The notes beneath the pieces were generated by a model. That model was not told where the DNA came from, searched no databases, and worked only from the letters and a program-made list of their open reading frames with translations. Shown here piece after piece: positions 1,681 to 24,779 of a DNA stretch of 24,875 bases. Within the stretch, counting starts at the first letter, position 1; the number at the start of each line of letters is the position of its first letter. The stretch covers positions 1 to 24,875 of the IMG/VR virus record IMGVR_UViG_3300019776_000644. One strand, written 5' to 3'. This stretch comes from a virus. The translations under genes were made by a program, and so were the position numbers.

Positions 1681-1727
1681 AAGGACAAGCTGCAAACTCA
1701 ATAAAATCAAGCGTTTTATTGTCCTTT
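1680..1727 (+). other. Nested A/T-rich stem-loop overlapping promoter candidate P1
   Basis: AAAGGAC at 1680-1686 pairs with GTCCTTT at 1721-1727. Inside it AATAAAA at 1700-1706 pairs with TTTTATT at 1714-1720 across a 7-base loop. A 13-base one-sided bulge separates the two stems. There is no T-run after it. The 3' half is the TTTTATTGTCCT box itself, so the structure could be a by-product of conservation of that box or a weak terminator for the upstream genes. Confidence 0.55.
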
Positions 1728-1755
1728 AAAAAGGCATTTGGAGAGTGTAGGTTTG
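1714..1755 (+). promoter_or_regulatory. Candidate phage promoter P1 (capsid block)
   Basis: TTTTATTGTCCT at 1714-1725 is followed after exactly 22 bases by TAGGTTTG at 1748-1755, a full match to the Bacteroidota -7 consensus TAnnTTTG. The S49 protease ATG lies 27 bases further on at 1782. The same box and spacing recur at 8766, 19827 and 22829. The upstream box sits further from the -7 box than the usual -33 TTTG element, so it may bind a phage activator rather than the standard sigma factor. Confidence 0.6.
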
Positions 1756-1781
1756 TATCTGTTAAAAATAATTTTCACCAC

Positions 1782-3047
1782 ATGGGATCAATCAAAGTTT
1801 TATTACAAGCAATTAACCGGCCCTGGTTTATTGATCCAGTAGCAGCAGAGAAATATGCAGCAGTGGTAGATAATATTTTTGCAAAAGAGGGATCAGATAT
1901 TTGGTTAAACGAATTAGTTAAACCGGTATCTGCAGATTTCGTTTTTGCAATAGCCCCATCCCAATCATCAGTAGGCAGCTTTACTGATGCCCCCCCAGGA
2001 TCGGTGGCATTGATCAATCTTTCAGGAGCAGTGATGAAATATGATTATTGTGGAGCACCAGGTACCCAGAGCATAATGGGTATGATAGATGCAGCCAATC
2101 AATCACCTAATATTTCAGCTATCATTTTACAGATAGATAGCCCTGGAGGATCAGTGGATGGCACAGCACAATTAGCCAATAAAATTAAGAGCAGCAGTAA
2201 ACCAGTAGTAGCATATGTAAATGGGATGATGGCCTCTGCAGCTATGTGGTTTGGCTCAGCAGCATCATACAGGATAGCATCAAGTGGCACAGATATGATT
2301 GGATCAATCGGTACCATGTCCTCCTGGAGAGATAGCAAAAAGCTAATGCAATCAGCAGGAGTAATCACTCATGAAGTGTATGCCACAAAATCTACCAAAA
2401 AGAATATTGAATCCAGGGCAGCATCAGGAGATGAGCCTAATTATCAGCCATTGATTGATAATATTTTGGATCCAATGAATGAGCAGTTTATTGCAGCAGT
2501 AAGAGGCAATATCAAAAATGTAAATGAGGAAGTATTTACCGGGGCTATTTATTTGGCAGATAAAGCCAAAGAGATGGGCCTGATTAATCAAATAGGTACA
2601 CTGGGAGATGCTGTTAATAAAGCACTACAGTTAGCCACCAAAAATCAAAAAACAGCTATGGAACAAAATCAGCGTTTTGCAGCAACATTAGCAGCAACAG
2701 GTGCAGAATCATTTGAGATGTTGAATGAGGGCATTTGGCTAACAGAGGCACAATTAGAGGGGATTGAAACTGCTTTAAATACATCAGCCACTGCATTACA
2801 AACAGCCCAGGATAATGTAGCAACAGTGCAGGGTAGCTTAGAAGAAATGAGCACTCAATTACAAACAAATGCAGATGCATTAACAGCAGCTCAAAATCGT
2901 ATTCAAGAATTGGAGGCAGGAGTAATTACTCCAGCAGCACCGGCAGCAGGAGGAGATCCAGCAGGTGGAGAGCCAAAGGGATTTGATAAGTTCAAAACAT
3001 CAGTGGATGCAGAGGCAGAAAAATTAAGAGCAATCTATAATTCATAA
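1782..3047 (+). CDS. S49-family head maturation protease with C-terminal scaffold-like region
   Basis: I place the start at the ATG at 1782 (421 residues), because MGSIKVLLQAINRPWFIDP matches the usual N-terminus of this phage family; the in-frame TTG at 1719 lies inside the promoter hairpin. A ClpP/SppA-like domain follows: SPGGSVDG at about residues 120-127, the probable nucleophile Ser152 in GMMASAAM, and a Lys-rich segment about 51 residues later (Lys203 and neighbours), close to the Ser-Lys spacing of SppA. From about residue 290 the chain becomes a helical, coiled-coil, Gln/Ala-rich region ending in a Pro/Gly/Ala linker and a charged helix, as in internal scaffolds. It lies directly before the major capsid gene. 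I infer self-cleavage and scaffold removal during head maturation. Confidence 0.88.
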   Translation: MGSIKVLLQAINRPWFIDPVAAEKYAAVVDNIFAKEGSDIWLNELVKPVSADFVFAIAPSQSSVGSFTDAPPGSVALINLSGAVMKYDYCGAPGTQSIMGMIDAANQSPNISAIILQIDSPGGSVDGTAQLANKIKSSSKPVVAYVNGMMASAAMWFGSAASYRIASSGTDMIGSIGTMSSWRDSKKLMQSAGVITHEVYATKSTKKNIESRAASGDEPNYQPLIDNILDPMNEQFIAAVRGNIKNVNEEVFTGAIYLADKAKEMGLINQIGTLGDAVNKALQLATKNQKTAMEQNQRFAATLAATGAESFEMLNEGIWLTEAQLEGIETALNTSATALQTAQDNVATVQGSLEEMSTQLQTNADALTAAQNRIQELEAGVITPAAPAAGGDPAGGEPKGFDKFKTSVDAEAEKLRAIYNS

Positions 3048-3071
3048 AAAAAAGCAAGCAATCGTGAAGCC

Positions 3072-3098
3072 AGCCCGGTACCGTAAATGGATCGGGCT
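3072..3098 (+). other. Hairpin between protease and capsid genes
   Basis: AGCCCG at 3072-3077 pairs with CGGGCT at 3093-3098, and the stem can extend inward with a mismatch (GTACC against GGAT). Only three T follow, so it is a poor rho-independent terminator. A processing or stability hairpin ahead of the highly expressed capsid gene is more likely. Confidence 0.5.
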
Positions 3099-3138
3099 TT
3101 GGCAGCGAAAGCAATTAAAAAAATAAAAATTTAAGACA

Positions 3139-4044
3139 ATGGCAAATCCAGATGTATCAGCAATCGCCTCCTCTTTTGTAGAGTTTGGTGGTGATATTTT
3201 TTCAAAGAAAGTAGTAAACTGGAAGCTCAGAGAATTGGGTATCCAGGTACGCACAAACGTAAATGCACCCCAGCCACTTACTAAGTTGAGTGCTGTAGGC
3301 GGCCCACGCCCATATGCCACCGGTGATAATACATCTGGCAATGGAGTAAAATATACTGATCGAGTATTAACTGCTTATCAGTCTAAATGGGATCATGATT
3401 TTGATCCAGAGGAATTCCGTAACACTTACCTGGCTACTATGGCTTTGGAGGGTGTAGGATTTGCTCAGGCAGCAAATGAGCAGATAGCAAAAGAATACCT
3501 AGCAGCTATCATGAATGATGTGCTTTTATTAGGTGTAAGAAATGGAGCAGGTACCACTGCAGCAGCAATTGCTGATGGATGGGGTACTATTATTGCAGCA
3601 GAGATTACTGCAACCAATATCACTCCAGTTGCAACAGGTGCATTAACCACAGCAAATGCAGTAACCAAAGTAGAGGAAATGGTAGCAGCATTCCCTACCT
3701 GGATGAGAGAGTATGAAACTCCAATAATCATGTATTGCTCTTATGCCACAATGGATAAGTATGTAGCACACTACAGAACATTAAATGGCTTTAAGTTAGA
3801 TACATCTGTAAAAGGAGATTATGCTTTAGATGGTAAGAATGCCATTTTGCGCCCAGCATCTTTCATGAAAACATCAGGCCGTATTATTGCTACAGTTCAA
3901 AACAACTTAGTATTTGGTACCAACATTGAGCAGATTCAGGTAGCAGCATCAGTTCGCAGAAATGTGATTGAGAGCAGACCAATGATGCCAGTAGGATGCC
4001 AGATTCAAGATTTGGATGCATTGGTTGTAAATGATCAAGCGTAA
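3139..4044 (+). CDS. Major capsid protein
   Basis: This 301-residue protein directly follows the S49 protease/scaffold gene, the usual place of the major capsid gene in tailed phages. It has no signal peptide or membrane segment and an Ala/Thr/Val-rich, mixed alpha/beta composition. The segment W-D-H-D-F-D-P-E-E-F-R-N-T at about residues 76-88 resembles capsid proteins of Bacteroidota prophages as I recall them. Family membership (HK97 fold) is inferred from neighbours and general likeness, not from an alignment. Flanking hairpins at 3072 and 4060 would protect or isolate its mRNA. No separate N-terminal delta domain is obvious, in line with a protease gene that carries its own scaffold. Confidence 0.82.
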   Translation: MANPDVSAIASSFVEFGGDIFSKKVVNWKLRELGIQVRTNVNAPQPLTKLSAVGGPRPYATGDNTSGNGVKYTDRVLTAYQSKWDHDFDPEEFRNTYLATMALEGVGFAQAANEQIAKEYLAAIMNDVLLLGVRNGAGTTAAAIADGWGTIIAAEITATNITPVATGALTTANAVTKVEEMVAAFPTWMREYETPIIMYCSYATMDKYVAHYRTLNGFKLDTSVKGDYALDGKNAILRPASFMKTSGRIIATVQNNLVFGTNIEQIQVAASVRRNVIESRPMMPVGCQIQDLDALVVNDQA

Positions 4045-4059
4045 TCATTTTAAATAATT

Positions 4060-4105
4060 AGAGCAGGAGTTTGACCAATCGGCATTTGCCACTTACTCCT
4101 GCTCT
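4060..4105 (+). other. Long hairpin after the capsid gene
   Basis: AGAGCAGGAGT at 4060-4070 pairs perfectly with ACTCCTGCTCT at 4095-4105 (11 bp). The 24-base loop contains a small GGCA/TGCC hairpin at 4081-4090. An A-run rather than a T-run follows on this strand, so it is not a classical terminator. It may set the 3' end or the stability of the capsid mRNA. Confidence 0.7.
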
Positions 4106-4119
4106 CTTAAAAAAAGTAT

Positions 4120-4533
4120 ATGGCTCAATTAAGATTAGTATCAGTTGAATTATTAGATGATAAATCATTCGATACTTTAACTAAAGCAATTGCTAAAAAT
4201 CCAGAACTGGCAGCTCAGGATGTAGTTTACTTAATGCAAGAAAACAAACAACTCCACGAGGGCTTTGATGCCTTAAAGCTAGAGCATGAAGCATTGGCTA
4301 AAATCAATGCAGAGCTGCAGGCACAAATCGAAGCTGGCCCAGGTGCAGCAGTAGTAGTAGCAAAGCCAACTTTAAGTGATAAGACTTTCACCCAGAATAA
4401 AAAAGAGTATGGGTTTGCATATCCACAGCTCCGATTTGAGGGTGCCATAATCACAGCAGATGATGTAGTAAAAGACAAGAAGCTGCAGGAGAAGTTGGTG
4501 GAGATGGAAAGTGGTTTTATCAAATTAGTGTAA
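4120..4533 (+). CDS. Hypothetical coiled-coil virion-region protein
   Basis: The 137-residue product has a predicted helical, coiled-coil first half (DVVYLMQENKQLHEGF... through about residue 70). An Ala/Gly/Val linker (GPGAAVVVAKP) at about 73-84 leads to a compact C-terminal domain of about 50 residues with F, Y and K. The layout recalls head fibre or decoration proteins, and the position between capsid and tail-tube candidates fits that, but no family is recognised. The start ATG at 4120 follows the long capsid 3' hairpin closely, so translation may depend on read-through from the capsid transcript. Confidence 0.65.
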   Translation: MAQLRLVSVELLDDKSFDTLTKAIAKNPELAAQDVVYLMQENKQLHEGFDALKLEHEALAKINAELQAQIEAGPGAAVVVAKPTLSDKTFTQNKKEYGFAYPQLRFEGAIITADDVVKDKKLQEKLVEMESGFIKLV

Positions 4534-4563
4534 AAAAAACTTTAACCCTTTTAACAGAATACA

Positions 4564-5112
4564 ATGTCAAACTTGTACAAGAAATTCACCAAAACCGAAG
4601 CAGCGGTAAACAGAGATGGAGGTTATAAACCAAAAATCTTTTTTTGCCCTATTGATACATTCTTAGCAATCCAAAAGCCAACTGCATCACCAACTGCATT
4701 GGGAGATACTAAGAAGATCACCACAGCCCACACATTTACCTCTCCTGCAGGATTCTTTAGCTTGTATGCAAAAGATCATTCTGTAAAAACCAAATCTACC
4801 TCAGTAGGTGATGATGGTGTAAAGCAGATAGAGCATGAATTTGAGGTGATTGTAACTGGTGATAGTGCAGAACACTTAGAGCAGTTTGAGGCAATGCTGA
4901 ATGATGATCTAATGATTTTGCTAAAGGATCAAGATTGCATTAATGCAACCGATCATGTGCAGTATGGAGATGAGTGCTTAACCCCTACATTAAGCATAGA
5001 GTTTGATTCTGCAGATACCAATACAGGAGTGAAGTACTACAAGATCACTGGTAAAATCAGAGGCCATAAGTATTTCTACACTGGTACCGTAACTGAGAAA
5101 ACAGTAGCATAA
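4564..5112 (+). CDS. Probable major tail tube protein
   Basis: This 182-residue protein is rich in beta-prone segments (KIFFCPIDTFLAI, EHEFEVIVTGDS, YYKITGKIRGHKYFYTG), has no membrane segment, and lies between the capsid gene and the tape measure gene, where siphophages carry the tail tube gene. The strongly charged middle (HLEQFEAMLNDDLMILLKDQD) looks helical, as in tube proteins with one long helix between two sheets. I give this as position plus composition; it could instead be a head-tail connector. Expression from P1 with the terminator downstream at 5375 would make capsid and this protein the two most abundant products, as expected for a tube subunit. Confidence 0.55.
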   Translation: MSNLYKKFTKTEAAVNRDGGYKPKIFFCPIDTFLAIQKPTASPTALGDTKKITTAHTFTSPAGFFSLYAKDHSVKTKSTSVGDDGVKQIEHEFEVIVTGDSAEHLEQFEAMLNDDLMILLKDQDCINATDHVQYGDECLTPTLSIEFDSADTNTGVKYYKITGKIRGHKYFYTGTVTEKTVA

Positions 5113-5132
5113 TCATCCTTTAAATAATCAGT

Positions 5133-5354
5133 ATGGAAACTAAGCCAATTACCCCAAAGGCATCAGAAGCCAAAACACCAACCCCTGAATTCTTTAAGAA
5201 TCCAGAGGTGAATGCAAAGTACCTGGCACCAATGGGAGCAGATAGTGTTATCCATATACCGGGCAAATACAGTGGCCACTTATCAGGTATATCACTTGAA
5301 GTAGCAGCAGCCCTGGTAGCCATGAAAGATAACCAGGTGGAGGAGAAAAAATAA
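5133..5354 (+). CDS. Small hypothetical protein before the terminator
   Basis: The 73-residue product has a Pro/Lys/Thr-rich N-terminus (about 20 residues), then a compact part with IHIPGKYSGHLSGISLEVAAALVAM and a Lys/Glu tail. In siphophages small tail-assembly chaperones sit between tube and tape measure genes; this protein is at that place but is short, and I see no slippery frameshift site joining it to the next gene. It is the last gene before the strong terminator at 5375-5408. Confidence 0.65.
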   Translation: METKPITPKASEAKTPTPEFFKNPEVNAKYLAPMGADSVIHIPGKYSGHLSGISLEVAAALVAMKDNQVEEKK

Positions 5355-5374
5355 CCACACAAAGAAAGCTAAGT

Positions 5375-5408
5375 AAAAAGCTCTGCCATCACCGGTGGAG
5401 CTTTTTTT
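5375..5408 (+). terminator. Strong rho-independent terminator inside the structural region
   Basis: AAAAAGCTC at 5375-5383 pairs with GAGCTTTTT starting at 5398. The loop holds the palindrome CACCGGTG, and seven T end at 5408. It separates the capsid/tube block from the tail-completion and tape measure genes. No promoter-like box is visible in the 14 bases before the next start, so downstream genes must rely on read-through. Confidence 0.88.
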
Positions 5409-5422
5409 AAATCAACCATATC

Positions 5423-5854
5423 ATGTTAGCTGTAGATCAAGAAAGGGTTAATCGAATTATCCAGGAGAAAACCAAAATGCTCCCAGCAGCATTGGTGGCA
5501 GAGCAGGGCAAATATGGTATGCAGCACTCCAGTAATGGTATCAGTAAAGTAAAGGCCACCACTAGAAAGCGTGATGGTATGATCAATAAAATATCTCTGG
5601 TATTTAAACGATCAGGAATCTACAGAGAAAAGGGAGCAGGTAAAGGGCAGGGAGGAGCTAAAGGATCTAAATGGGTAAACGCAAAAGGCCAACAGAAAAC
5701 CACAAATCCCAATAGTTTAAATAAGCAAGGCACCGGTAATAGACAGCCAGCACCCTGGTTTAATCCAGTAGTAGAAAAATTTGCAGATGAGCTTGCACAG
5801 GAGCTCTTAGATGAGTTTGTAGAAATTGCATTTAACAATTTAAAAATCAAATAA
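5423..5854 (+). CDS. Probable tail-completion / HK97 gp10-like protein
   Basis: This 143-residue basic protein starts 14 bases after the terminator and overlaps the tape measure start by one base (TAATG). The middle is Gly/Lys/Gln-rich (GAGKGQGGAKGSKW) and the end holds PAPWFNPVVEKFADELAQELLDE, a pattern I associate with gp10-like neck or tail-completion proteins, where P-x-F/W-x-P is followed by a long amphipathic helix. Such proteins sit at the head-tail interface. The assignment is by pattern and position; a minor tail protein is the alternative. Confidence 0.55.
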   Translation: MLAVDQERVNRIIQEKTKMLPAALVAEQGKYGMQHSSNGISKVKATTRKRDGMINKISLVFKRSGIYREKGAGKGQGGAKGSKWVNAKGQQKTTNPNSLNKQGTGNRQPAPWFNPVVEKFADELAQELLDEFVEIAFNNLKIK

Positions 5855-8754
5855 TGGCTCAGAATAATACCACAAATACAGGCAGGAGTATTTACCTAGA
5901 TACAACAGCAGCACAAACGGCCCTCACTAAACTCACAGAAAAAAGTGAGATACTTACAAGACAGATCCAGGCAGGAGAGAAAGCAGGTAAGAGTATGGGT
6001 ACAGAGATTGCTAAGCTATCAGAAATCAAGGGTAAAATTACTGAGGTACAGAATGTATTAGATAAGGGATTGAGCCCATCATTAAGAGAGCAAGAAAAGC
6101 TGGTAAAAAAATTGAGGGTAGAGTTAAGAGGGATGAGCTCAGATGCAGAGGGATTTAATCAAAAGAGAAAAGCATATATAGCAGCTACTGGTGATTTAGA
6201 AAAGTTGAGAGGAAAGGTAGGTGCAGTATCACAGGCCAATAATCAATTAGGAGGTAGCTTTTTAAATTTCACAAAGAATGCAGCAGGCATTGCACTAGCT
6301 ACTGTAGGAATACAGGGGCTATTTAGCGTACTAGAGGGCTCAATAACCGAAGCAACAGAGGCAGAGGAATCAATGAGCAGGTTAAAGAATACACTGGCTA
6401 ATATTGGCAGAGAAGATGCACTGGAGAGATTAGTAGAAAAGAGCAATGAACTTGCACAATCATTTAAGTTTTTAGATAATGATGATATCAATGGAGTTTT
6501 CCAAAAGTTAATTACTTATGGTAAATTAACTGAAAGGCAGATAGGTGATGTAACAGAGGTTATTATCAATTTTAGTAAGAAAAATAAAATATCATTAGAG
6601 GAAAGTTCATCAGTAATTATTAAGGCCCTGGAGGGGTCAGGTAAAGCTCTTAAAGAGTATGGTATTAATATTAAAGATGGCGGAGATGTAACAGAAAGAT
6701 TTGGCATAATCATGAACGATTTAAAGCCAAAAGTAGATGGGGCTGCAGATGCATTTGGAGAAACTTTTGCAGGGAAATTGGCCATAGCAAGACAATCAAT
6801 TAAAGACACTCAGGAAGAGATTGGAGGTAAACTTATTCCTGTTTTAGCATCATTATTAAAAGCTACTTCTGAAAGCGTAACTGGTTTATTTGATTATTTT
6901 GAGATGCTAAAAAATTCTTTTTTTCTAGGTGGTGGGCCACTCGGTAATGCCGGTGCTTTAGCTATTAATAATGCTAAACAGATTGCTGCTGGTAAAGCAG
7001 AAGCAGATAAAAATCAGATTAATAATATCATTAAAAGTTATGAACGTGATGCAAAAGGCAGAATGAGAACTGCTGCAGAAATACTTACATCATTGGGGCA
7101 AGAGCAGGAATTTAATTTACAACAGATTGCATTAAAAAGACTTTCTGGGGATATCCAGGGGGAAGCCATCTACACACGAGCAAAAGATCTTACCATAAAG
7201 GCCATTGAAAAAGTAAAGAAAGATTTTAATCCAGAATTAGATAAAGTATTGGGTAGTGGTGATAAATCTAAGCCAGATGATTCATTCCAAAAGGAGTATG
7301 ATAAAATGCGGAAAGATTTTGAAACTCTCATGGGAGTGCTTAATCAAACTGCAAAGCTGTTAGATCTATCTCCAATGGAGCAGGAGTTTTTAAAGATCAA
7401 TGATTTACTAGCAAAGCAATTAGAGGAGATTGATAAACTACAAAAAGCTGGAGCCATCTCAGCTAAAGAGGCAGTTAATGCAATTGCTCTAGCACAGCAA
7501 GCAGCTACAGTATCATCAGGACTAGCATTTGATAAAGATGCAAAAGCACGAAGATCAAAAAACAGTGTAGCTACAGTAGTTTCATTTGCTGATTTTTTAG
7601 CTAATCAAACAACTAATACACCTGCAGATAAAGAGTTAAATGATACAAGTACACCATCAGCAGTATCAGCATTCAATAGAGATAAATTAGCTGGGTTACA
7701 AAACAGTGTAACATTAGCTGGCAATTCAAAAGAAAGAATGAAAGCACAGTTAGCATTGCTTGAACAAGAAAGAGCAATGGAGTTAGATAATGCAGAACTA
7801 ACTGAGCAGGAAAAATTACGGATCAATTTAGAATATAATGAGAAGAGAAAATTAATTGAGGAAGAACATCAAAAGACAATCTTTACAGCTATTACAGATG
7901 CTATAAATTTTGCTCAGGCAGCATTAAGCATTTTAAGCCAGATTGATCAGGCACGAACTAATATGGAGAATCAAGCTCTAAAACGTGATATTGCCAATAA
8001 CGATAAGCGTAAAAGAGATTTGGAAATGACTGCCAAAAAAGGTTTGATATCTCAGCAAGAGGTGAGAATCCAAACTATTAAAATGGATCAAGAGCTGGAT
8101 GATAAAAAACGAAAATTAGAAGCACAGCAATTTGAGAGAAGTAAAAAAATACAAATAGCACAGGCATTAATGAATGGAGCTTTAGGTATTACTCAGGCAT
8201 GGGCATCCCCTGGATTCCCTGCAGCCATTGCAATAACTGCACTAATAGCAGCACAAACAGTTGCACAAATAGCGGTGATTAGTTCTCAAAAGCCACAGTT
8301 TGCTCATGGTGGTATCTTACCTGGGCCATCCCATAGAGAGGGAGGTTTGCCAGTAGTAAATCCTCGAACTGGTCAAGCAGTAGCAGAGGTAGAGGGTGGT
8401 GAGTTAATCTTATCCAAAAAGTTTGTTCAATCTAATCCATCACTGGTGCCAACATTACTACATGCATCAAAGCAGGGGCAGCGGTTAATGTTTTTAGAAA
8501 GGCAGTACCAGGGCATCAATTATGCAGGGCTCTCTAGAATGAAAACAAAGTATGCAGATGGAGGTATTTTTAATTCAACCGGTAATAATCCCACACCTGC
8601 ATCTATTGTACCAGGTACAGAAAGGATGGAGCAAATTTTAGAGGCATTAATACAAAAACTAGATGAGCCATCAATTGCAATTATTTCACAGAATAAAATA
8701 GATCAGGCAGCATCTACCAGAAATAAAATCATATCTGATGCAGCATTTATGTAA
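5854..8754 (+). CDS. Tail tape measure protein
   Basis: At 966 residues this is the longest gene in the window. The N-terminal 140 residues are coiled coil, followed by a hydrophobic segment at about 141-160 (AGIALATVGIQGLFSVLEGS). Long helical stretches run to about residue 800, with a strongly charged coil at about 625-780 and a hydrophobic Ala-rich helix at about 785-805. The C-terminus has FAHGGILPGPSHREGGLP near residue 813 and YADGGIF near 899, the F/Y-A-x-G-G-I signature common in tape measure proteins. It fixes tail length and probably passes into the cell envelope at DNA injection. It is translationally coupled to the upstream gene. Confidence 0.9.
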   Translation: MAQNNTTNTGRSIYLDTTAAQTALTKLTEKSEILTRQIQAGEKAGKSMGTEIAKLSEIKGKITEVQNVLDKGLSPSLREQEKLVKKLRVELRGMSSDAEGFNQKRKAYIAATGDLEKLRGKVGAVSQANNQLGGSFLNFTKNAAGIALATVGIQGLFSVLEGSITEATEAEESMSRLKNTLANIGREDALERLVEKSNELAQSFKFLDNDDINGVFQKLITYGKLTERQIGDVTEVIINFSKKNKISLEESSSVIIKALEGSGKALKEYGINIKDGGDVTERFGIIMNDLKPKVDGAADAFGETFAGKLAIARQSIKDTQEEIGGKLIPVLASLLKATSESVTGLFDYFEMLKNSFFLGGGPLGNAGALAINNAKQIAAGKAEADKNQINNIIKSYERDAKGRMRTAAEILTSLGQEQEFNLQQIALKRLSGDIQGEAIYTRAKDLTIKAIEKVKKDFNPELDKVLGSGDKSKPDDSFQKEYDKMRKDFETLMGVLNQTAKLLDLSPMEQEFLKINDLLAKQLEEIDKLQKAGAISAKEAVNAIALAQQAATVSSGLAFDKDAKARRSKNSVATVVSFADFLANQTTNTPADKELNDTSTPSAVSAFNRDKLAGLQNSVTLAGNSKERMKAQLALLEQERAMELDNAELTEQEKLRINLEYNEKRKLIEEEHQKTIFTAITDAINFAQAALSILSQIDQARTNMENQALKRDIANNDKRKRDLEMTAKKGLISQQEVRIQTIKMDQELDDKKRKLEAQQFERSKKIQIAQALMNGALGITQAWASPGFPAAIAITALIAAQTVAQIAVISSQKPQFAHGGILPGPSHREGGLPVVNPRTGQAVAEVEGGELILSKKFVQSNPSLVPTLLHASKQGQRLMFLERQYQGINYAGLSRMKTKYADGGIFNSTGNNPTPASIVPGTERMEQILEALIQKLDEPSIAIISQNKIDQAASTRNKIISDAAFM

Positions 8755-8765
8755 TGCTTAACTGC

Positions 8766-8807
8766 TTTTATTGTCCTTTTTGCAGTATGGTATATAGAGC
8801 AATTTTA
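8766..8807 (+). promoter_or_regulatory. Candidate phage promoter P2 (portal block)
   Basis: TTTTATTGTCCT at 8766-8777 begins 12 bases after the tape measure stop. After 22 bases comes CAATTTTA (8800-8807), one base from the P3 box TAATTTTA. The start codon of the next gene lies 35 bases after the first box, the same distance as in P3, and both are preceded by GCT directly before ATG. Confidence 0.6.
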
Positions 8808-8811
8808 TGCT

Positions 8812-9132
8812 ATGGATTTTAATGATAGCATACTGTTTAAAGATATGATTACCTACATGGATAGTGGGCAGCCATTCTCTATGAGCTTTGTTACTTACGA
8901 TAAAAAACGTAAGCGAGGAGGAGAATGGATCAATATCAAAAGTGCAGTAAAGCTCATGGCACCAGAGAAGCAGCAGAAAGCCATTGAAGCAGCACAGCCA
9001 ACCTTTACAATGGTTAGCAAAAACCCAAAACATTTTGAAAATTCAACTAGGAATATCAAACTCCAGAATGGATCAGTTAGGAAAATTCATATCCGATTGG
9101 TTCGATTATTCAACAATAAAAAAGTGATTTAA
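8812..9132 (+). CDS. Conserved-looking hypothetical protein upstream of portal
   Basis: The 106-residue basic protein has no signal peptide or membrane segment. It contains MDSGQPFSMSFVTYDKKRKRGGEW near the N-terminus and a C-terminal basic strand (VRKIHIRLVRLFNNKKVI). It is the first gene behind candidate promoter P2 and overlaps the portal start by one base (TAATG), so the two are translationally coupled. I recall similar short proteins next to portals in Bacteroidota prophages but cannot name a function. Binding of nucleic acid is possible from its charge, but this is only a guess. Confidence 0.7.
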   Translation: MDFNDSILFKDMITYMDSGQPFSMSFVTYDKKRKRGGEWINIKSAVKLMAPEKQQKAIEAAQPTFTMVSKNPKHFENSTRNIKLQNGSVRKIHIRLVRLFNNKKVI

Positions 9133-10469
9133 TGGTACAGCTAGTGGATGGCATAGGATATAGCTCTAAAGCAGTTTTCATGAGTGAGGGAATGTATGGT
9201 GGCACAGATGGCAAATCTGAGGCTGTTACATTACCATCACAGCAGGATAAACTTACTCAGGGCCCCTGGGCATTATGGGGTGCTGATAATAAATTGCCCA
9301 TCACTTTTGCAGATCATATTGAAAACTGTGGGGTATTATCTGCAGCACTAGATGCCAAAGCAAGAATAGCAACCGGCAAAGGTGTACAGCCATTTACCAT
9401 TGAAAATATTTTACCTGATGGCACAGAGGAATTAAAATGGGTGAATGATGCAGAGATCAATGAATGGCTAGAGGAGAATCAATTATTTGATACTCACCTA
9501 GATTTTTCATTTGATAAAAATGGATATGGCTGGAGATGTGGTTCATACATGCTAAATGTAAAAAGAGATAAGATAAAACGAATCCACAGAAAAGATGTGT
9601 ATGAGTGTAGACTGCAAAAGAAATCTACTAAAGGCATCATTAATAGTATTTATATGTGTGCTGATTGGCCTAATAATTCAGCAGCATTTAATAAAAATGA
9701 GCATATCCAATTGCCAGCACTCATGGAGGGATTTGAGCTGCATGATTTAAATGGCAGAGCAGGTGGCTTTGAGTTTGCATTTATAGATCGTAAGCGGAGA
9801 AATGGTAGGCAGTATTATCCAATGCCATTATGGTATGCAGCACAGGAATGGGTGAAGCTTGCAAGATCAGTACCAGGTCATAAGAACACCCAATTTAAAA
9901 GACAGATTCAGCTGCAGTATGTAGTAACCATCAGTCAAAAGTATTGGGAGAATTTATACCAGAACTGGGGCACTATGGAGATAGCAAAAAAGATGGAGAT
10001 AGTAAATGCAAAGTATGATGAGATTGATAGTTGGTTATCAGGATCAGGCAATGCTTACAAATCATTATTCTGTTTCTCTTATGTAGATCCAGTTACCGGT
10101 AAAGAAGTGAAAGATATTCAAGTGGAGGCCATTGATGATAAGGTGAAAGATGGAAAGCTCCTGCCTGATTCAGCAGCAGCCAACAGTGAAATATTATTTG
10201 CATTAATGGTAAACCCTGCACTCATGGGAGCAGGACAACCAGGAGGGCCATACAGCTCCAATGCAGGAGGATCTAATGTGAGAGAAAGTTATTTAGTACA
10301 GATGATGTTGCTAGAGGAGGAAAGAAAAATGAATCTCACCCATCTCAATACAGTGAAACGCTATAATGGCTGGGATAAAAAATTTGATAAGCCATTGGTA
10401 TTTAGAATTCAATCCGGATTACTTACCACACTAGATACAGGTAAATCCACTAAAAATGAAATGCTTTAA
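9132..10469 (+). CDS. Portal protein
   Basis: This 445-residue protein has the features I associate with portals of Bacteroidota phages: an N-terminal W-G-A-D-N-K-L-P-I segment near residues 50-58, alternating helices and strands, a long central charged stretch, and a C-terminal helical region (RESYLVQMMLLEEERKMNL) followed by a short beta end. The stretch ALMVNPALMGAGQPGGPYSS before the long helix is typical of portal clip/stem regions. The dodecameric portal would form the DNA channel at one capsid vertex and dock the terminase. It is placed after the tape measure gene, which is unusual (see findings). The start overlaps the upstream stop by one base. Confidence 0.75.
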   Translation: MVQLVDGIGYSSKAVFMSEGMYGGTDGKSEAVTLPSQQDKLTQGPWALWGADNKLPITFADHIENCGVLSAALDAKARIATGKGVQPFTIENILPDGTEELKWVNDAEINEWLEENQLFDTHLDFSFDKNGYGWRCGSYMLNVKRDKIKRIHRKDVYECRLQKKSTKGIINSIYMCADWPNNSAAFNKNEHIQLPALMEGFELHDLNGRAGGFEFAFIDRKRRNGRQYYPMPLWYAAQEWVKLARSVPGHKNTQFKRQIQLQYVVTISQKYWENLYQNWGTMEIAKKMEIVNAKYDEIDSWLSGSGNAYKSLFCFSYVDPVTGKEVKDIQVEAIDDKVKDGKLLPDSAAANSEILFALMVNPALMGAGQPGGPYSSNAGGSNVRESYLVQMMLLEEERKMNLTHLNTVKRYNGWDKKFDKPLVFRIQSGLLTTLDTGKSTKNEML

Positions 10470-10472
10470 GCC

Positions 10473-11438: not shown

Positions 11439-11447
11439 AAATCAGGT

Positions 11448-11876: not shown

Positions 11877-11882
11877 ACAAAC

Positions 11883-12236: not shown

Positions 12237-12237
12237 T

Positions 12238-14263: not shown

Positions 14264-14277
14264 TAAATCAAAACTAA

Positions 14278-15486: not shown

Positions 15487-15495
15487 AAAACAACT

Positions 15496-17625: not shown

Positions 17626-17648
17626 AAAATGCTATTTTTAGATAAATA

Positions 17649-18254
17649 ATGATCAATATGAAAAAAACGATCGTACTAATATTGCTTTGCTTTTTGGCAT
17701 TAAATACAAGCTACTCACAGGATGCAGATTTATACTTTAGAGATCAGCAGTTAAAGAAGCAAGAAGATGATAAGGTTATTGCAGATTGGCCATTGGATCC
17801 CAAAACAAAGCAGATCCTATTTAGCGAAGTAATTAATGTAGATAATGCTAATGCTAAAGAGCTTTACAGCAGAGCCAAATTATTTGTGGCAGATGCATAT
17901 AAAAGCAGTAAATCTGTAACAGACTTAAATGATGATGAAGCGAAAATAATTTTGATTAAGCCATCAATGAAAGTCCGTATAAAAGATTTTTGGGTTAATG
18001 ATGATTACTATGTTCAATACCAATTAAAAATAGAGTGTAAGGATAACAAGTATAGATATACTATTGAGGGCCATTCAATACTAATTCCAATAAGAAGTTC
18101 AGGGGCTGATATATCATATTCTTTTTTAGAAAAAAGGCCATCAATGTTTTCAAAAAAATCATGGATTGGGGCCCAAAATAGTGCTATTATAGATACTCAG
18201 ATTCTTATTAAGGTTCTAAAATCATCAATGAGTAAACCAAACTCAGATTTCTAA
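17649..18254 (+). CDS. Secreted DUF4468 (TBP-like fold) protein, probable moron
   Basis: The frame opens at ATG 17649, but the Met at 17658 starts a better signal peptide (MKKTIVLILLCFLALNTSYS, cleavage before Gln), so the mature protein should lie in the periplasm or outer membrane. Of about 180 mature residues, the first part (FSEVINVDNANAKELYSRAKLFVADAY) matches my memory of DUF4468, a Bacteroidota family said to have a TBP-like fold. DUF4468 genes are usually chromosomal. Here one sits behind the tail-tip gene, with codon choice less biased to GCA and GTA than the structural genes, which fits a lysogenic-conversion gene. A weak TATTTTTA box lies at 17633-17640, but I see no full promoter. 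Confidence 0.72.
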   Translation: MINMKKTIVLILLCFLALNTSYSQDADLYFRDQQLKKQEDDKVIADWPLDPKTKQILFSEVINVDNANAKELYSRAKLFVADAYKSSKSVTDLNDDEAKIILIKPSMKVRIKDFWVNDDYYVQYQLKIECKDNKYRYTIEGHSILIPIRSSGADISYSFLEKRPSMFSKKSWIGAQNSAIIDTQILIKVLKSSMSKPNSDF

Positions 18255-18561
18255 AAATATTTTAAACTTTTTTTGCTAATCAATTTGCTAACTGCTCAAT
18301 ATTGTAAAAATCAATTATTGGCACGTTTTTGGTAATTAGTAAGCAATAAAGTGAGCAAAACCCATTTTGCAGATTGATGTTTACTGCATAAAATTGTAAT
18401 GCGTAAACATCATAATATTAAATGGAGCAAACTCCACACAAAAAGTTAAGAGCCTTAAATAAAGGGCAGCTGAGCCGATTAGATCGGTACTCTTTCCTCG
18501 TGCTCCGCATTAGGTTGTTTACGCAGCAGCTGCCTACTTTTTTAATTCTAAATTTTCTAAA
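18255..18561 (+). promoter_or_regulatory. Non-coding leader rich in inverted repeats
   Basis: No convincing gene is present in these 307 bases. They hold: direct repeats TTTGCTAA at 18272-18279 and 18284-18291; a hairpin GCAAAA/TTTTGC at 18355-18370 with loop CCCA; an imperfect 13-bp hairpin at 18376-18411; TGGAG/CTCCA at 18423-18436; arms GGCAGCTG at 18465-18472 and CAGCTGCC at 18527-18534 enclosing a CCGAT/ATCGG hairpin near 18475-18487; and TGTTTACGCA at 18516-18525, complementary to the start region of the 108-aa gene. A 66-codon reading frame from ATG 18422 crosses this area and could be a leader peptide, but I do not count it as a gene. Confidence 0.6.
18376..18411 (+). repeat. Imperfect inverted repeat, arms A and B
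   Basis: Left arm GATGTTTACTGCAT (18376-18389) pairs with ATGCGTAAACATC (18399-18411) with one bulged T. The core decamer of the right arm, TGCGTAAACA, is repeated exactly at 18563-18572, and its complement TGTTTACGCA is at 18516-18525. Confidence 0.85.
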
Positions 18562-18572
18562 ATGCGTAAACA
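18516..18572 (+). repeat. Inverted repeat covering a start codon, arms C and D
   Basis: TGTTTACGCA at 18516-18525 and TGCGTAAACA at 18563-18572 are a perfect 10-bp inverted repeat with 37 bases between. The right arm begins at the second base of the ATG at 18562, so the hairpin would hide the start of the 108-residue protein. Confidence 0.85.
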
Positions 18573-18888
18573 GAAAAGAGTTGAACAGGAGCAAATTAAT
18601 GCAACTGAAAATGGCTGGGTAAGCCAGTACACCATGCCCAAAAAGCTTAAAAAATGGGAGATTGATGAAAAAACCCCACTACTAAACAAGCTTAAAGAGG
18701 CTAATCCATCCATGCAGGTAACAGTAGTGCATCACAATGGTATTTTTGCTGTAGTAGTTCACTTTGAAAATCACTGCTTTTGTGATTGCCATTGGTGCCT
18801 AACAGAAGCAGATGCAGCCATTGCTTTAGGGCTGCTAGAAATTCAAAAACAGTTCAAGAAATTTGTAGAGCCACACGATTTTTTCTAA
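18562..18888 (+). CDS. 108-aa hypothetical protein with a compact Cys/His cluster
   Basis: The product starts with a charged, Gln-rich segment (MRKQKRVEQEQ), then a helical Lys-rich part, a beta hairpin (VTVVHHNGIFAVVVHF) and a tight cluster: His71, Cys72, Cys74, Cys76, His77 and Cys79. It ends with a helix containing LGLLEIQKQFKKF. The cluster could bind zinc or form disulfides; no named zinc-finger family fits. The ATG at 18562 is the only good start. It is covered by arm D of a repeat that can pair with an upstream arm, so translation may be switched by RNA structure. A terminator follows at 18918. I cannot assign a function. Confidence 0.65.
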   Translation: MRKQKRVEQEQINATENGWVSQYTMPKKLKKWEIDEKTPLLNKLKEANPSMQVTVVHHNGIFAVVVHFENHCFCDCHWCLTEADAAIALGLLEIQKQFKKFVEPHDFF

Positions 18889-18902
18889 AGCCAATTTTTT
18901 AC

Positions 18903-18950
18903 GGACAAATTTTGTCCAAAGCCATCCTAACTCAATAGGGTGGCTTTTTT
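18903..18950 (+). terminator. Rho-independent terminator after the 108-aa gene
   Basis: AAAGCCATCC at 18918-18927 pairs with GGGTGGCTTT at 18938-18947 (one G-U pair), and the T-run reaches 18950. It is preceded by a short palindrome, GGACAAA/TTTGTCC, at 18903-18917 with a one-base centre. Confidence 0.85.
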
Positions 18951-18953
18951 AAT

Positions 18954-18961
18954 TATATTTG
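18954..18961 (+). promoter_or_regulatory. Bacteroidota -7 box before the DUF4760-like gene
   Basis: TATATTTG is a full match to TAnnTTTG and lies 17 bases before the ATG at 18979, directly behind the terminator at 18918-18950. No good TTTG is seen at the -33 distance. The TTTTATTGTCCT box of the phage promoters is absent, so this gene is probably read by the host sigma factor during lysogeny. Confidence 0.6.
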
Positions 18962-18978
18962 GAGTAAATCATATATAA

Positions 18979-19644
18979 ATGAGTGAATCAAATAATCAAA
19001 ACACATCCTACTCAATCAATGGGTTAGAAAGAATCTTAAATTCTGCTATCAATTTTATATTTTATTACAGATTGGTAGTAGTAGTGATTGCAATAGTTTT
19101 TTTAATCATTTCTGCTGTTTCAATTTCGAATAGTTCAACCGATAACGATAAACTAAAAAATATTTCAATAGTTCTAGCATGTGGATCTGTTGTAATTGGT
19201 ATTTTTTATTCAGTTATTAACTATGAGCACTCCCAGATTAAATTTAGGCATGATATAAAAGCATCTCGCAATTCTTTATCATTCAATGCTGCAAGTGAAT
19301 GGTTTAAACCATCTATGGTAGAGAATCTTAAAATAACTAAGGTTTTATATGTGCAGCATAGGCACTTAATTGATGAGAATAAAGCAGCAGAATTCTCAAA
19401 AATATTAGACGAAAATGAACAAGCTAGGTCTGCTCTTGTTTCTATATTTAATTATTTAGAATGCATTGCAATTGCAGTTAATGAAAACATTTTAGATGAA
19501 AGCTTTATGAAAAAGTACTTATCTGGGGTTTGCGTTAATTACATTATTGACTATGGATTCTACATCGATTACAAAAGAAATGTTAATAAATCAGCACAGA
19601 TTTGGATTAATTTCACAAATTTGGCTCGAAAATGGCAGGATTAA
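18979..19644 (+). CDS. Membrane protein, DUF4760-like, autonomous moron candidate
   Basis: The 221-residue product has two TM helices at about residues 28-48 and 62-82, then a mainly helical cytosolic part of about 140 residues. This contains EWFKPSMVENL and LVSIFNYLECIAIAVNENILDESFMKKYL, resembling DUF4760-type proteins (F-x-x-L-E-x-I-A-I... followed by a helix with D-E-x-F). Function of that family is unknown. The gene has its own TATATTTG promoter box and is enclosed by terminators at 18918 and 19805, so it can be expressed alone from the silent prophage. That suggests lysogenic conversion, for example superinfection exclusion. Codon choice and CpG content look less phage-like than its neighbours. 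The family call is from memory. Confidence 0.65.
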   Translation: MSESNNQNTSYSINGLERILNSAINFIFYYRLVVVVIAIVFLIISAVSISNSSTDNDKLKNISIVLACGSVVIGIFYSVINYEHSQIKFRHDIKASRNSLSFNAASEWFKPSMVENLKITKVLYVQHRHLIDENKAAEFSKILDENEQARSALVSIFNYLECIAIAVNENILDESFMKKYLSGVCVNYIIDYGFYIDYKRNVNKSAQIWINFTNLARKWQD

Positions 19645-19804
19645 AAGTATAAGTAATCACAATTATTGCAACAGAATGCACGTTTTATTAAATCAAGACC
19701 TATATTTACTCAAGAATCTAAAAAACCGCTAACATGAAACAGGGCAAAAAAAATCAAATTATTAAAGAAGCTAGTGGATGGTAAACTTTTAAAAAAATTA
19801 ATAT

Positions 19805-19830
19805 AAGGGGGCTTTTTAGCCCCCTTTTTT
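19805..19830 (+). terminator. Rho-independent terminator after the DUF4760-like gene
   Basis: AAGGGGGCT at 19805-19813 pairs with AGCCCCCTT at 19818-19826 across a TTTT loop, and a T-run follows to 19830. The 160 bases between the gene and this hairpin hold only a 16-codon frame at 19734-19784, which I do not count. Confidence 0.92.
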
Positions 19831-19868
19831 ATTGTCCTAAATCGACTGCATTAGCACAGTTAATTTTA
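19827..19868 (+). promoter_or_regulatory. Candidate phage promoter P3 (terminase block)
   Basis: TTTTATTGTCCT at 19827-19838 starts inside the T-run of the preceding terminator. After exactly 22 bases comes TAATTTTA at 19861-19868, and the ATG of the next gene is at 19873. Box spacing and distance to ATG are identical to P2. Confidence 0.6.
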
Positions 19869-19872
19869 AGCT

Positions 19873-20583
19873 ATGCAAAAGATTAAAGAGTGGCTATCTG
19901 GTAAGCAGAATTTTATCATTGGGAGGGCAATTTACAGAGCCATGATTAGTGCAAATGATGATTTAATCCAATTGCTTGATCAAGGATACAGCCAATACAC
20001 ACATCAAAAGTTGGTTAATGCAATGCAGGCCCATTTAGAGCCACCTGCAGCCATTGCAGAAATCACTGTAGAGGATAGATTAAATTATTACCCAACGGTT
20101 TGGATGGATGAAGATTTAGACCAACCATTAATGGAATTAACCTCATTAGTGCCCAGTAAACCTCAAGTAGATCAATTTGTGGTAAAAGCACTTGAAAAAG
20201 AGTGGCAAATACCTTATAAAAAGATGCAGTACCTGATTGCACAGCTTGATCAGTTTGGAGAGGCTAATGATCCTGCAGCAATAGCATCCAGAATGGATTT
20301 AGCAGGGCAAATTTTAGAACTAGAGCAGCAGGTGAATAGTGTATGGGCTAAAAAGGATGAATATGAAAAAACAGGGCATTTATCTGCTGCAGTAGATGAT
20401 TTAGAAATACCTACTGATCCAATTCAACTAGCAGAGCTCATTAATCGAATTAAAAAAGGCATTCGAAACAATAAAACCAGGATGCAGCAATTTCCTGATA
20501 AAGCTACTTATGCAGAGAAGTATCAAACTTATAAAATGCAATATTTTAAAGTAACCGGTAAACACTATCAAGATAAAGTATGA
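19873..20583 (+). CDS. Hypothetical protein upstream of terminase
   Basis: This 236-residue, largely helical, charged protein opens with MQKIKEWLSGKQNFIIGRAIY and ends in a basic segment (KKGIRNNKTRMQQFPDKATYAEKY). Proteins with a similar N-terminus occur in front of the terminase in other Bacteroidota prophages as I recall, but their role is not known to me. It is the first gene behind promoter candidate P3 and overlaps the small-terminase-like gene by four bases (ATGA). Tight coupling suggests a part in DNA packaging or its control. Confidence 0.72.
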   Translation: MQKIKEWLSGKQNFIIGRAIYRAMISANDDLIQLLDQGYSQYTHQKLVNAMQAHLEPPAAIAEITVEDRLNYYPTVWMDEDLDQPLMELTSLVPSKPQVDQFVVKALEKEWQIPYKKMQYLIAQLDQFGEANDPAAIASRMDLAGQILELEQQVNSVWAKKDEYEKTGHLSAAVDDLEIPTDPIQLAELINRIKKGIRNNKTRMQQFPDKATYAEKYQTYKMQYFKVTGKHYQDKV

Positions 20584-21137
20584 ATACAAAAAATATTTAT
20601 GCAAGTATCCAACGGAAACTAAGACCAGAAACAACTTTAGAAGTACTTAGAGCATACATCATTGCAGATGGAGTGGGTATTACATTAACAGCGGAACAGG
20701 AGGAGCAAAAAGAAATCATTGATTTTACTGATGAACAAATCAGGCAAAAGCAAGGGCAATTAAAGCGGTATGATATTGCTAAAATAATTGCTAATCGATT
20801 TGAGATTACCCCTAGAACTGCACAGCGTTACATACAGTTAGCTGAGGAGTTATACAGCAGCTCTGCTCCACTTAATAAAAAATATAAAATTCAATTAAGG
20901 ATTGAGTTTTGCGAACAGCAGCAACAAATTGCCATGCTGCAAAATGATCATGATGCTGTAGTAATGTTTGAGAGGTGCATTCAAAAATACATTGAGATGT
21001 ATCCAGAGGTTAAAGTTACCAGAACACGCAGGCAGCAAACTTTTGTATTACCTGGTACTGTTTTAGAAAATACATCATCTATTGAGGATGCTGTTGAAAT
21101 TCTCACATCTGAAACCGATTTGGACAATGAGCAATGA
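20580..21137 (+). CDS. Terminase small subunit-like HTH protein
   Basis: The 185-residue protein has a helix-turn-helix at about residues 62-92 (KRYDIAKIIANRFEITPRTAQRYIQLAEEL), followed by helical segments with many Gln that look suited to oligomer formation. Size, HTH and position directly before, and overlapping by 11 bases, the large terminase fit a small terminase that recognises the packaging site. An alternative is a late transcription activator, which would be of interest given the repeated promoter elements. The start ATG overlaps the preceding stop (ATGA). Confidence 0.65.
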   Translation: MNTKNIYASIQRKLRPETTLEVLRAYIIADGVGITLTAEQEEQKEIIDFTDEQIRQKQGQLKRYDIAKIIANRFEITPRTAQRYIQLAEELYSSSAPLNKKYKIQLRIEFCEQQQQIAMLQNDHDAVVMFERCIQKYIEMYPEVKVTRTRRQQTFVLPGTVLENTSSIEDAVEILTSETDLDNEQ

Positions 21138-22701
21138 TGAGGAGAAAATAATAAAGCTTACCAAATCTCAGGCTTTATTAAAGTTGGTTAACCCAAATGT
21201 ATGCTATGCACTATGGCCCAGGGCTGCTGGTAAAACCAATGCAATTGGTGATAGGGTAGAGCATCTGAGTGAAACCATGCCACGTTCTCAAATACTGCTT
21301 TTCTCAGATACTTTTAAACGATTAGAGGAGCGTATTGTACCCAATATCCTGGGCTATTTTCAAAATGAGATTGGCTTAATTGAGAATGAGGATTTTGTTG
21401 TTTTCAAAAAGCCACCAGAGCACTTTGATAAACCCATCACCCCACTAAAAGTATTTGATCATGTGATTACTTTCTCATCAGGTTTAGCCCTATGCTTAGC
21501 ATCTCAGGCAGTACCAGGATCTGCCAATGCTTACAATGCTCAGGCAATGATTGTAGATGAAGCAAAGTACTGTAAAGAGCAAATCATCAACACTGAGGCC
21601 CTACCTGCTTTAAGAGGTGCATTTGATACTTTTGCCCATCTACCTGAATATCGTTCTCATTGGTATTTTACTGATAAGTTTGGAGAGAATATTGCATGGC
21701 TATTGGCAAAGAAAAGGTTATCAGATCCAAAGAAAATAAAAGCAGTAATCACTCTAGCATTGGAGGTAATTAGATTAGAGGAAAAAGTTAAATCATATAA
21801 AAGCACTCATCAGCAATATGAGAACCTGCATAAAATTAAACCACTATCAGACCTGTTAGAGAAAGCCAGGAAAGAATTGGTATTTTATTCTGATGCTGCA
21901 CCTTATGAGAATTTGCAAAATCTAGGTGAGAAATACTTTAGGGATTTGAAAAGAGATCTTACCCCTTATGAATACAGTATATCTGTAGAGAATAAAGATC
22001 CGGATAAAGCAGAGCACAGCTTTTATCCTGCACTATCAGGAGTGCAGCACTACCACAATATTGAGCATGATGTAGATAAGAGTGCACCACTTATCATAGC
22101 ACTAGATTATAACTGGAGGATAACACCAATGGTAGTAGCTCAGTTTAGTAAGATGCCTGATCAAGCATACACCACATTAAACATTGTGGCTGCTATACAT
22201 ACACTGCATCCATCTGGTGGCATAGAGCTAACAGTGAATGCATTTACTGAATACTTTAGAGAGCATCCTAATAAGCATGTGTACTTTGTTTACGATCATA
22301 CTGCAGTAGGTAAGCGGCCTGATGGTGCAACCTTTGCAAAGATTGTATGCAGTGCATTGCAAACTGCAGGCTGGAGCTTTACTGAGTGCTACATGGGGCA
22401 GGCACCACACCATGATATAAAGTTCGAACAGTTCAAAAAGCTGATGAGTAATAATGCTGATATGGCTATCCGTATCAACAGGATAACTGCTGCACCTCTC
22501 ATCACATCAATGGAGAATGCTGCTGCAGTGATGAGTATGGGTAAGACCAAAAAGGATAAGAGCCAGGAGAAAAATCTAAGACTAGATCCCATTGCTCAAA
22601 CAGATTACTCTGATGCATTTGATCAGTTGTTATGGGCAGTGCTAGAGTTGAAGCTGGTGAAGCATGGCCCAGTGTTTACTATGCCAATGCTAGTGAGATA
22701 G
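21127..22701 (+). CDS. terL: Terminase large subunit
   Basis: I choose the ATG at 21127 (524 residues), which overlaps the upstream gene by 11 bases; an earlier in-frame ATG at 21082 would overlap more deeply. The ATPase domain has a Walker A-like site in WPRAAGKTNAI (Gly-Lys-Thr at 35-37) and a Walker B site MIVDEA (Asp144, Glu145). The C-terminal RNase H-like nuclease shows the expected acids: Asp327 in LIIALDYNW, Asp390 in YFVYDHTA, and Asp496/Asp499 in DYSDAFDQ. It cuts concatemeric DNA and drives it through the portal. The gene is followed by a nested hairpin and a terminator. Confidence 0.88.
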   Translation: MSNDEEKIIKLTKSQALLKLVNPNVCYALWPRAAGKTNAIGDRVEHLSETMPRSQILLFSDTFKRLEERIVPNILGYFQNEIGLIENEDFVVFKKPPEHFDKPITPLKVFDHVITFSSGLALCLASQAVPGSANAYNAQAMIVDEAKYCKEQIINTEALPALRGAFDTFAHLPEYRSHWYFTDKFGENIAWLLAKKRLSDPKKIKAVITLALEVIRLEEKVKSYKSTHQQYENLHKIKPLSDLLEKARKELVFYSDAAPYENLQNLGEKYFRDLKRDLTPYEYSISVENKDPDKAEHSFYPALSGVQHYHNIEHDVDKSAPLIIALDYNWRITPMVVAQFSKMPDQAYTTLNIVAAIHTLHPSGGIELTVNAFTEYFREHPNKHVYFVYDHTAVGKRPDGATFAKIVCSALQTAGWSFTECYMGQAPHHDIKFEQFKKLMSNNADMAIRINRITAAPLITSMENAAAVMSMGKTKKDKSQEKNLRLDPIAQTDYSDAFDQLLWAVLELKLVKHGPVFTMPMLVR

Positions 22702-22712
22702 GGGCAGCACAG

Positions 22713-22765
22713 GGCCTTTCATATTTCTATGCAATGCCTAGAGGCATTGCCTCAGCGTACAGGCC
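22713..22765 (+). other. Nested hairpin behind the terminase
   Basis: GCAATGCC at 22731-22738 pairs perfectly with GGCATTGC at 22743-22750 over the loop TAGA. Outer arms GGCCT (22713-22717) and AGGCC (22761-22765) can close the structure. It has no T-run and precedes the actual terminator by a few bases, so it may be a separate structured RNA element or a packaging-related site. Confidence 0.7.
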
Positions 22766-22769
22766 GCGC

Positions 22770-22797
22770 AGTGCCATCGAAAAGAGTGGCATTTTTT
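22770..22797 (+). terminator. Rho-independent terminator after terminase
   Basis: AGTGCCA at 22770-22776 pairs with TGGCATT at 22787-22793 (one G-U pair), and the T-run continues to about 22797. It ends the transcript started at P3. Confidence 0.75.
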
Positions 22798-22828
22798 ATT
22801 TTATCAAATTGATATTCAATTATTTGCA

Positions 22829-22870
22829 ATTCATTGTCTTATACTTTATAAATATTCATATTTATTTTTC
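22829..22870 (+). promoter_or_regulatory. Candidate phage promoter P4 (weaker match)
   Basis: ATTCATTGTCTT at 22829-22840 matches TTTTATTGTCCT at 9 of 12 positions. After exactly 22 bases TATTTTTC follows at 22863-22870 (TAnnTTT). It lies just behind the terminase terminator, and the next ATG is at 22894, preceded by GCT as at P2 and P3. Confidence 0.45.
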
Positions 22871-23328: not shown

Positions 23329-23450
23329 GTTACATCAAGTGGAAAAATAAAAGAGCATTTACCAAAAAAAATAAATCCTCCAAAGGTGGTGTAGGGAGGA
23401 TTTATAAAGTGATCAATAAAAATAGAGATAAAGCTATCAGCAGATTCTAA
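23325..23450 (+). CDS. Small basic protein, 41 residues
   Basis: The ATG at 23325 overlaps the preceding stop (ATGA), and the frame runs 41 codons to TAA at 23448-23450. The product is strongly basic (MSYIKWKNKRAFTKKNKSS at the N-terminus, then Gly-rich and Lys/Arg-rich to the end). It overlaps the convergent integrase gene by 14 bases. Translational coupling and the matching style of small basic genes behind terminases in related prophages support it as real. It may bind nucleic acid, but this is inferred from charge only. Confidence 0.6.
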   Translation: MSYIKWKNKRAFTKKNKSSKGGVGRIYKVINKNRDKAISRF

Positions 23451-24630: not shown

Positions 24631-24747
24631 ATGATGTCTTTTAGTTTTAAAAGCATCAAGCATCAAAGATTGCAGCGGAGGTTTAGATTGATACAGAGCA
24701 GAGGTATTATTCGCCTCACTATTCGCCCCACTATCTTTTCTTTTTGG

Positions 24748-24776: not shown

Positions 24777-24779
24777 TTG

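Follow-up and report, generated by a model that had tools for sequence, protein, structure and literature searches.

The viral record IMGVR_UViG_3300019776_000644 of IMG/VR, analysed here over its whole length of 24,875 bases (the window), probably represents a fragment of a virus and begins inside the late genes. It raises the question of what purpose is served by a short sequence that recurs with fixed spacing in front of several late gene blocks. The exact 12-mer TTTTATTGTCCT occurs at 1714, 8766 and 19827, in each case on the + strand (the late strand) and within an intergenic gap, and a gap of 22 bases separates the three copies from the boxes TAGGTTTG, CAATTTTA and TAATTTTA, respectively, as a first-pass annotation of the DNA had reported. 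That annotation proposed one late regulon transcribed from several phage-specific promoters, a proposal that comparison with other phages strongly supports for three of its four copies, the fourth being excluded. The signal is real, phage-specific and of fixed architecture, and is best read as a class of late promoters, the probable activator of which is a protein of the virus itself. It is apparently a promoter signal undescribed so far, which many very different Bacteroidota viruses position with single-base precision ahead of virus-building genes.

The head-block element (1714–1755, + strand) consists of the 12-mer at 1714–1725, the overlapping core TGTCCTTT at 1720–1727, an N22 spacer and the −7 box TAGGTTTG at 1748–1755, which is a full match to TAnnTTTG. 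The ATG of the head protease at 1782 lies at an offset of 68 from the 12-mer at 1714, and the predicted start near 1760 would leave a leader of ∼22 nucleotides (nt) before it. The portal-block element (8766–8811, + strand) has its 12-mer at 8766–8777, the core TGTCCTTT at 8772–8779 and the −7 box CAATTTTA at 8800–8807. The terminase-block element (19827–19872, + strand) has its 12-mer at 19827–19838, the core TGTCCT at 19833–19838 and the −7 box TAATTTTA at 19861–19868. In these two elements the distance from the 12-mer to the ATG (at 8812 and 19873) is 35 bases, with GCT preceding the ATG, as had been noted. The equal distances are best explained by a transcription start at the ATG itself, and both elements are predicted to yield leaderless mRNAs. 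The three copies do head the capsid, portal and terminase blocks, the first of which opens with the head protease (phrog_53). The proposed post-terminase copy (22829–22870, + strand) is placed outside the class: it matches nine of the 12 positions, a level expected by chance (58 matches with up to three mismatches in the window compared with 54 expected), and neither of our two profiles recovers it.

Since three-copy 12-mers are not rare in such sequence (at least one arises in ∼35–77% of simulations under Markov models of the window, which itself contains two further ones), the case for the element rests on position and comparison. An independent profile, constructed from 47 promoters of other phages with the window left out, ranked 8772(+) first (score 21.5) and 1720(+) second (18.3) in a scan of the window; the top score among 60 shuffles was 18.3. 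A scan of viral contigs for the 12-mer-N22-TAnnTTT pattern found 43 stretches, and in several unrelated ones the element is intergenic, follows a terminator-like hairpin and lies a few bases before a gene. The gene behind it in G002, G003 and G006 is a homolog of the window gene at 19873, and the element precedes this homolog at the same ATG distance as at 19827 in G002, G003, G006, G009 and others. In G009, copies stand upstream of the head protease, of the gene that opens the terminase block (terminase-lead gene) and of the homolog of the 8812 gene, corresponding to the blocks of the window. The cultured Polaribacter phage Leef_1 has six copies of the TGTCCTTT core, which lie ahead of the blocks for protease/capsid, terminase lead, 8812 homolog and neck/tape measure and in two further places. 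The head protease, portal protein and large terminase of element-bearing phages are often only 22–30% identical to those of the window.

Among the genomes of 84,980 bacterial and archaeal species that were scanned there were only 22 matches, half of them in Bacteroidota records. Clear intergenic matches before phage genes, with the genes identified by homology and our own reading, are present in Bacteroides xylanisolvens XB1A, Bacteroides sp. GM023, a Muribaculaceae bacterium, a Prevotellaceae metagenome-assembled genome (MAG) and a Bacteroidetes MAG. G013 and both Bacteroides prophages (XB1A and GM023) carry 4–6 copies each, nearly all of which are intergenic and on one strand. Separately, a Prevotella MAG (L192; G018:C3 near 166364) contains the full 12-mer with TACCTTTG before a gene that does not look phage-derived, a case of either chance or host use.

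So that the motif itself played no part in the selection, 80 loci were retrieved solely through the protein family of the window 8812 gene. TGTCC was present in 64 of the 68 distinct regions upstream of these homologs, mostly ∼40 nt before the ATG. The logo derived from 38 non-redundant copies upstream of 8812 homologs (the portal class) reads TGTCCTTT-N20-[CG]AnnTTnG-NNN-Y-ATG, is TGTCCTTTTT-like from −40 to −31 and has T (61%) or C (34%) at the base before the ATG. Relative to the putative start site the −7 box nAnnTTnG is present, with its first T at only 18%, and TTTG near −33, the upstream element of the Bacteroidota primary sigma factor, was not found in this logo. The T-run upstream of the core is often the tail of a terminator and is only weakly conserved, and the conserved unit is thus TGTCCTTT and not the 12-mer as originally delimited. 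Upstream of the terminase-lead genes of G417 and G428 and of the 8812 homolog of L274, the position of TGTCCTTT is taken by CGTCCTTT; the first T of the core may thus tolerate variation, and the element counts are to be read as lower bounds. In several terminase-block copies (spacers of L005, L008, L013, L022, L026 and L023) the stretch separating the TGTCCT core from the −7 box contains a palindrome, TGGCGATCGCCA or TGGCAATTTCC, which spans about −29 to −18; it is possible that this forms a second operator.

Two sets of matches were rejected. Those with a spacing of 21 are background with no start nearby, and the L007/L044/L156 group (spacings 22–23) was taken to be false, as its other strand reads AAGGACAATAAAAATG, a ribosome site together with a start codon. 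This group had supplied two of the first profile's 15 seeds and was excluded from the logo and the independent profile. L007, L044 and L156 contain many near-identical repeats in which a promoter-like stretch and AAGGACAATAAAAATG on the other strand constitute a different repeated expression signal.

The element marks the genes that open blocks. Counting TGTCC[TC] anywhere from −150 to +60, so that a few hits are accidental, the share of phages with the element in front of a given gene is 17/20 for the head protease, 17/19 for the 8812 homolog, 13/21 for the terminase-lead gene and 10/22 for the tape-measure gene. Before block-internal genes it was absent (portal, 0/23; large terminase, 0/22; capsid, 0/20), and before other genes it occurred in 66 of 912 cases (7%). 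A looser pattern gave 75 matches in 22 contigs compared with 3–19 for eight scrambled controls, and 69 of the 75 lie on the strand that holds most matches of their contig; a stricter pattern gave 31 matches in 20 contigs compared with none for the control. In its multiple copies before late blocks and its absence elsewhere, the element fits the functional class of phage activator-dependent late promoters.

The position of the transcription start is suggested by the mapped starts of Flavobacterium psychrophilum, in which a TAnnTTTG box occupies −12 to −5 (PMC9723704). When the logo is aligned to these starts, its conserved G falls at −5, the pyrimidine at −1 and the A of the ATG at +1. Distances were measured to the first usable ATG, an earlier table that chose the in-frame start nearest 40 having been biased. 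Among 75 elements this ATG lies exactly 40 bases from the start of TGTCC in 28, almost never at 42–49 and anywhere from 50 onward. Such a spike and gap would be expected of mRNAs that begin at the ATG or else carry leaders no shorter than ∼10 nt, and the mRNAs of several virus-building genes probably start right at the start codon. Leaderless mRNAs make up 5.5% in F. psychrophilum (PMC9723704), and 3.7% of the 5′ untranslated regions of B. thetaiotaomicron are shorter than 10 nt (PMC7366714).

We consider it likely that the elements are phage late promoters at which a phage activator replaces recognition of the host −33 element. The host RNA polymerase with its primary sigma factor would use the relaxed −7 box (nAnnTTnG, −12 to −5), and TGTCCTTT at −40 to −33 would take the place of the host −33 element and be bound by a phage-encoded activator produced as the early phase ends. 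One late block would be opened by each element, namely that of the head protease, the portal or the terminase, and in relatives also that of the tape measure. Transcription of the portal and terminase blocks would start on the A of the first ATG and give leaderless mRNA, and other blocks would have a short leader. The activator may belong to a family of proteins of ∼160 amino acids (the ∼160-aa family) whose genes lie just before the late genes; its member in Leef_1 is Leef1_39.

The first-pass annotation had left the choice between an activator and an alternative sigma factor. No gene for a sigma factor was noticed among those that the phages share. A phage-encoded DNA-binding activator is likelier, and the ∼160-aa family is proposed as the best candidate. 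When the proteins of 24 contigs were clustered, the near-universal families were those of virion and terminase genes plus this single non-structural family, which is present in 17 contigs by clustering and in 18 phages by another count; the next families are the integrase (15 contigs), a ∼990-aa family (nine) and a LuxR-like family (nine, including Leef_1). The ∼160-aa gene is situated towards the end of the early region, not far from the head block. When 27 loci were retrieved through the ∼160-aa family only, with closer subsets of its diverse alignment, they contained ∼38 elements on its strand, two on the opposite strand and one for the control. In five loci (L329, L330, L331, L336 and L337) the element lies 54–55 nt before the chosen start of the ∼160-aa gene itself, which suggests self-activation. 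The tested members have no Pfam or PHROG match. AlphaFold models, of fairly high confidence (mean pLDDT of 84 and 82), both start with a strand-helix-helix arrangement resembling that of ribbon-helix-helix proteins, and weak fold matches are to ribbon-helix-helix proteins of archaeal viruses (E of 0.07–0.9); unlike these proteins, the family has a large extra helical part and no significant match. G001, the closest relative of the window that was found, carries the gene (L339). Bacteroides sp. GM023 has a second member (G016:C23 near 676580–677071, slice position 75580), which lies ∼67 kb away from the one in the prophage and may be part of a different mobile element.

Several observations weigh against this interpretation. 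The site at 19833 scores only 9.6 with the independent profile, and the copy at 19827 deviates from the TGTCCTTT core, reading TGTCCTAA. The low score is due to the A immediately after TGTCCT, which G002, G003, G006 and G009 share, and support for the 19827 copy comes from other phages, in which identical elements precede the homologous gene of the terminase block. The −7 boxes vary among copies, some of which may therefore be weak. Comparison of the ∼160-aa candidate with the PDB gave no significant fold match, and its gene was not found in the window, which is a fragment, or in G414, G415, G008 and the remnant G015. We advance only tentatively the fuller idea that the ∼160-aa family, possibly ribbon-helix-helix-like, is a dedicated late activator that steers the polymerase of Bacteroidota towards TGTCCTTT promoters and yields leaderless virion mRNAs across a large and diverse group of Bacteroidota phages.

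Rather unlikely, in our estimate, is a scheme in which the same late promoters are read by another phage factor (such as the LuxR-like early protein, which is the Leef1_22 family, or a sigma-like protein that escaped detection), with another role for the ∼160-aa family. The failure to find that family in a few element-bearing phages and its weak fold match would fit, as would the occurrence of the LuxR-like family in nine of the 24 contigs, Leef_1 among them. The LuxR-like family is nevertheless absent from most element-bearing contigs, whereas the ∼160-aa family is found in 17–18 and accompanies the element even when it is fetched alone.

That the elements are ordinary host promoters used by a primary or extracytoplasmic function (ECF) sigma factor without any phage factor is improbable. 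A box like the host −7 TAnnTTTG does lie at the right distance from the likely start; the element nevertheless marks late blocks only. The search of hosts and related prophages advised at first pass located it in the prophages and found no enrichment in host genomes (three matches compared with two for the control in 395 genomes, and again three compared with two in 148), where one match in each set is the B. xylanisolvens prophage. These counts indicate that the element is not a general host promoter. Because it is absent as a host signal, TTTG is missing at −33 and the first T of the −7 box is depleted to 18% in the portal class, a phage factor would be called for.

Still less probable is a signal other than a promoter, acting in DNA or RNA where blocks meet, for example an operator for a repressor or a site linked to processing or to a terminator. 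In its favour, a terminator stands immediately before many copies, and the palindrome TGGCGATCGCCA occupies some spacers. In the window, an intrinsic terminator (19805–19826, + strand; nine pairs, tail TTTTATTGTC) lies directly upstream of the 19827 element, and its T-tail supplies the first part of the 12-mer. Copies free of a terminator also exist, that at 8766 among them, and the fixed distance of the −7 box, the pyrimidine at −1 and the ATG spike at 40 are features of a start site. Chance repetition of a T-rich 12-mer, despite the commonness of three-copy 12-mers in simulated windows and the chance nature of the fourth copy, is scarcely credible given recurrence at homologous positions in such divergent phages, and for the whole class it is refuted by the 64 of 68 upstream regions and the control counts (31 compared with 0, and 75 compared with 3–19).

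Among known systems, a close parallel in organization is provided by the middle promoters of phage T4, in which a phage box likewise replaces the host upstream element, the downstream box of the host sigma factor is kept and several promoters obey one phage regulator (PMC2988021). The T4 MotA box, WWWTGCTTtA, lies at −30 and is separated by 12 bp from a −10 box that is matched strictly, and MotA acts together with AsiA in sigma appropriation (PMC2988021). In contrast, TGTCCTTT occupies −40 to −33, with 20 bp between it and a relaxed −7 box, and serves late genes, a Bacteroidota polymerase and an unrelated candidate protein; the logo, with TGTCCTTT and N20, lacks a TGCTT ∼12 bp upstream of a −10 box. 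The element is thus kept outside the MotA family, since sequence, position and host polymerase differ. Like the Bacteroidota primary-sigma promoter (TAnnTTTG at −7, TTTG near −33) it has a TAnnTTTG-like box at a matching distance from the likely start; it differs in having TGTCCTTT in place of the −33 TTTG, in the first T of the −7 box being mostly C or G in the portal class and in not being a host signal. The late promoters of phage Mu, four in number, depend on the activator C, which is encoded at the end of the middle/early region; the proposed sharing of one phage activator among several late promoters is alike, and the host and sigma factor are unlike; no resemblance of box or protein was noticed, none having been looked for. 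The open-access papers searched contained no account of a late promoter common to Bacteroidota phages, which is not proof of absence, and no useful match for a ribbon-helix-helix late activator.

In the window, the head-maturation protease (1782–3047, + strand; phrog_53, E 9.5e-48) is the first gene after the first element. The portal block begins with the conserved 106-aa gene (8812–9132, + strand) that anchored the motif-independent test and continues with the portal protein (9132–10469, + strand). The terminase-lead gene (19873–20583, + strand) has homologs in ∼20 of 24 phage contigs, and the conserved large terminase (21082–22701, + strand) was named by synteny and family, with no PHROG match and with a relative, L004, at 43% identity. 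At the right end of the window a tyrosine-recombinase-like integrase (23437–24756, − strand) adjoins a tRNA-Glu gene (24779–24851, − strand), a pair that is likely to mark an attachment site and prophage border. Additionally, a 51-base repeat (78% identical) at 681–731 and 1031–1081 spans the starts of two adjacent small genes with signal-peptide-like beginnings.

The analysis yields a precise and widely shared signal, a predicted start base and one candidate regulator. The predicted leaderless virion mRNAs are notable, as leaderless mRNAs are rare in Bacteroidota. For phages of the gut and the sea, the element would help to predict operons as well as gene starts, and tools for inducible expression in Bacteroidota may come from it.

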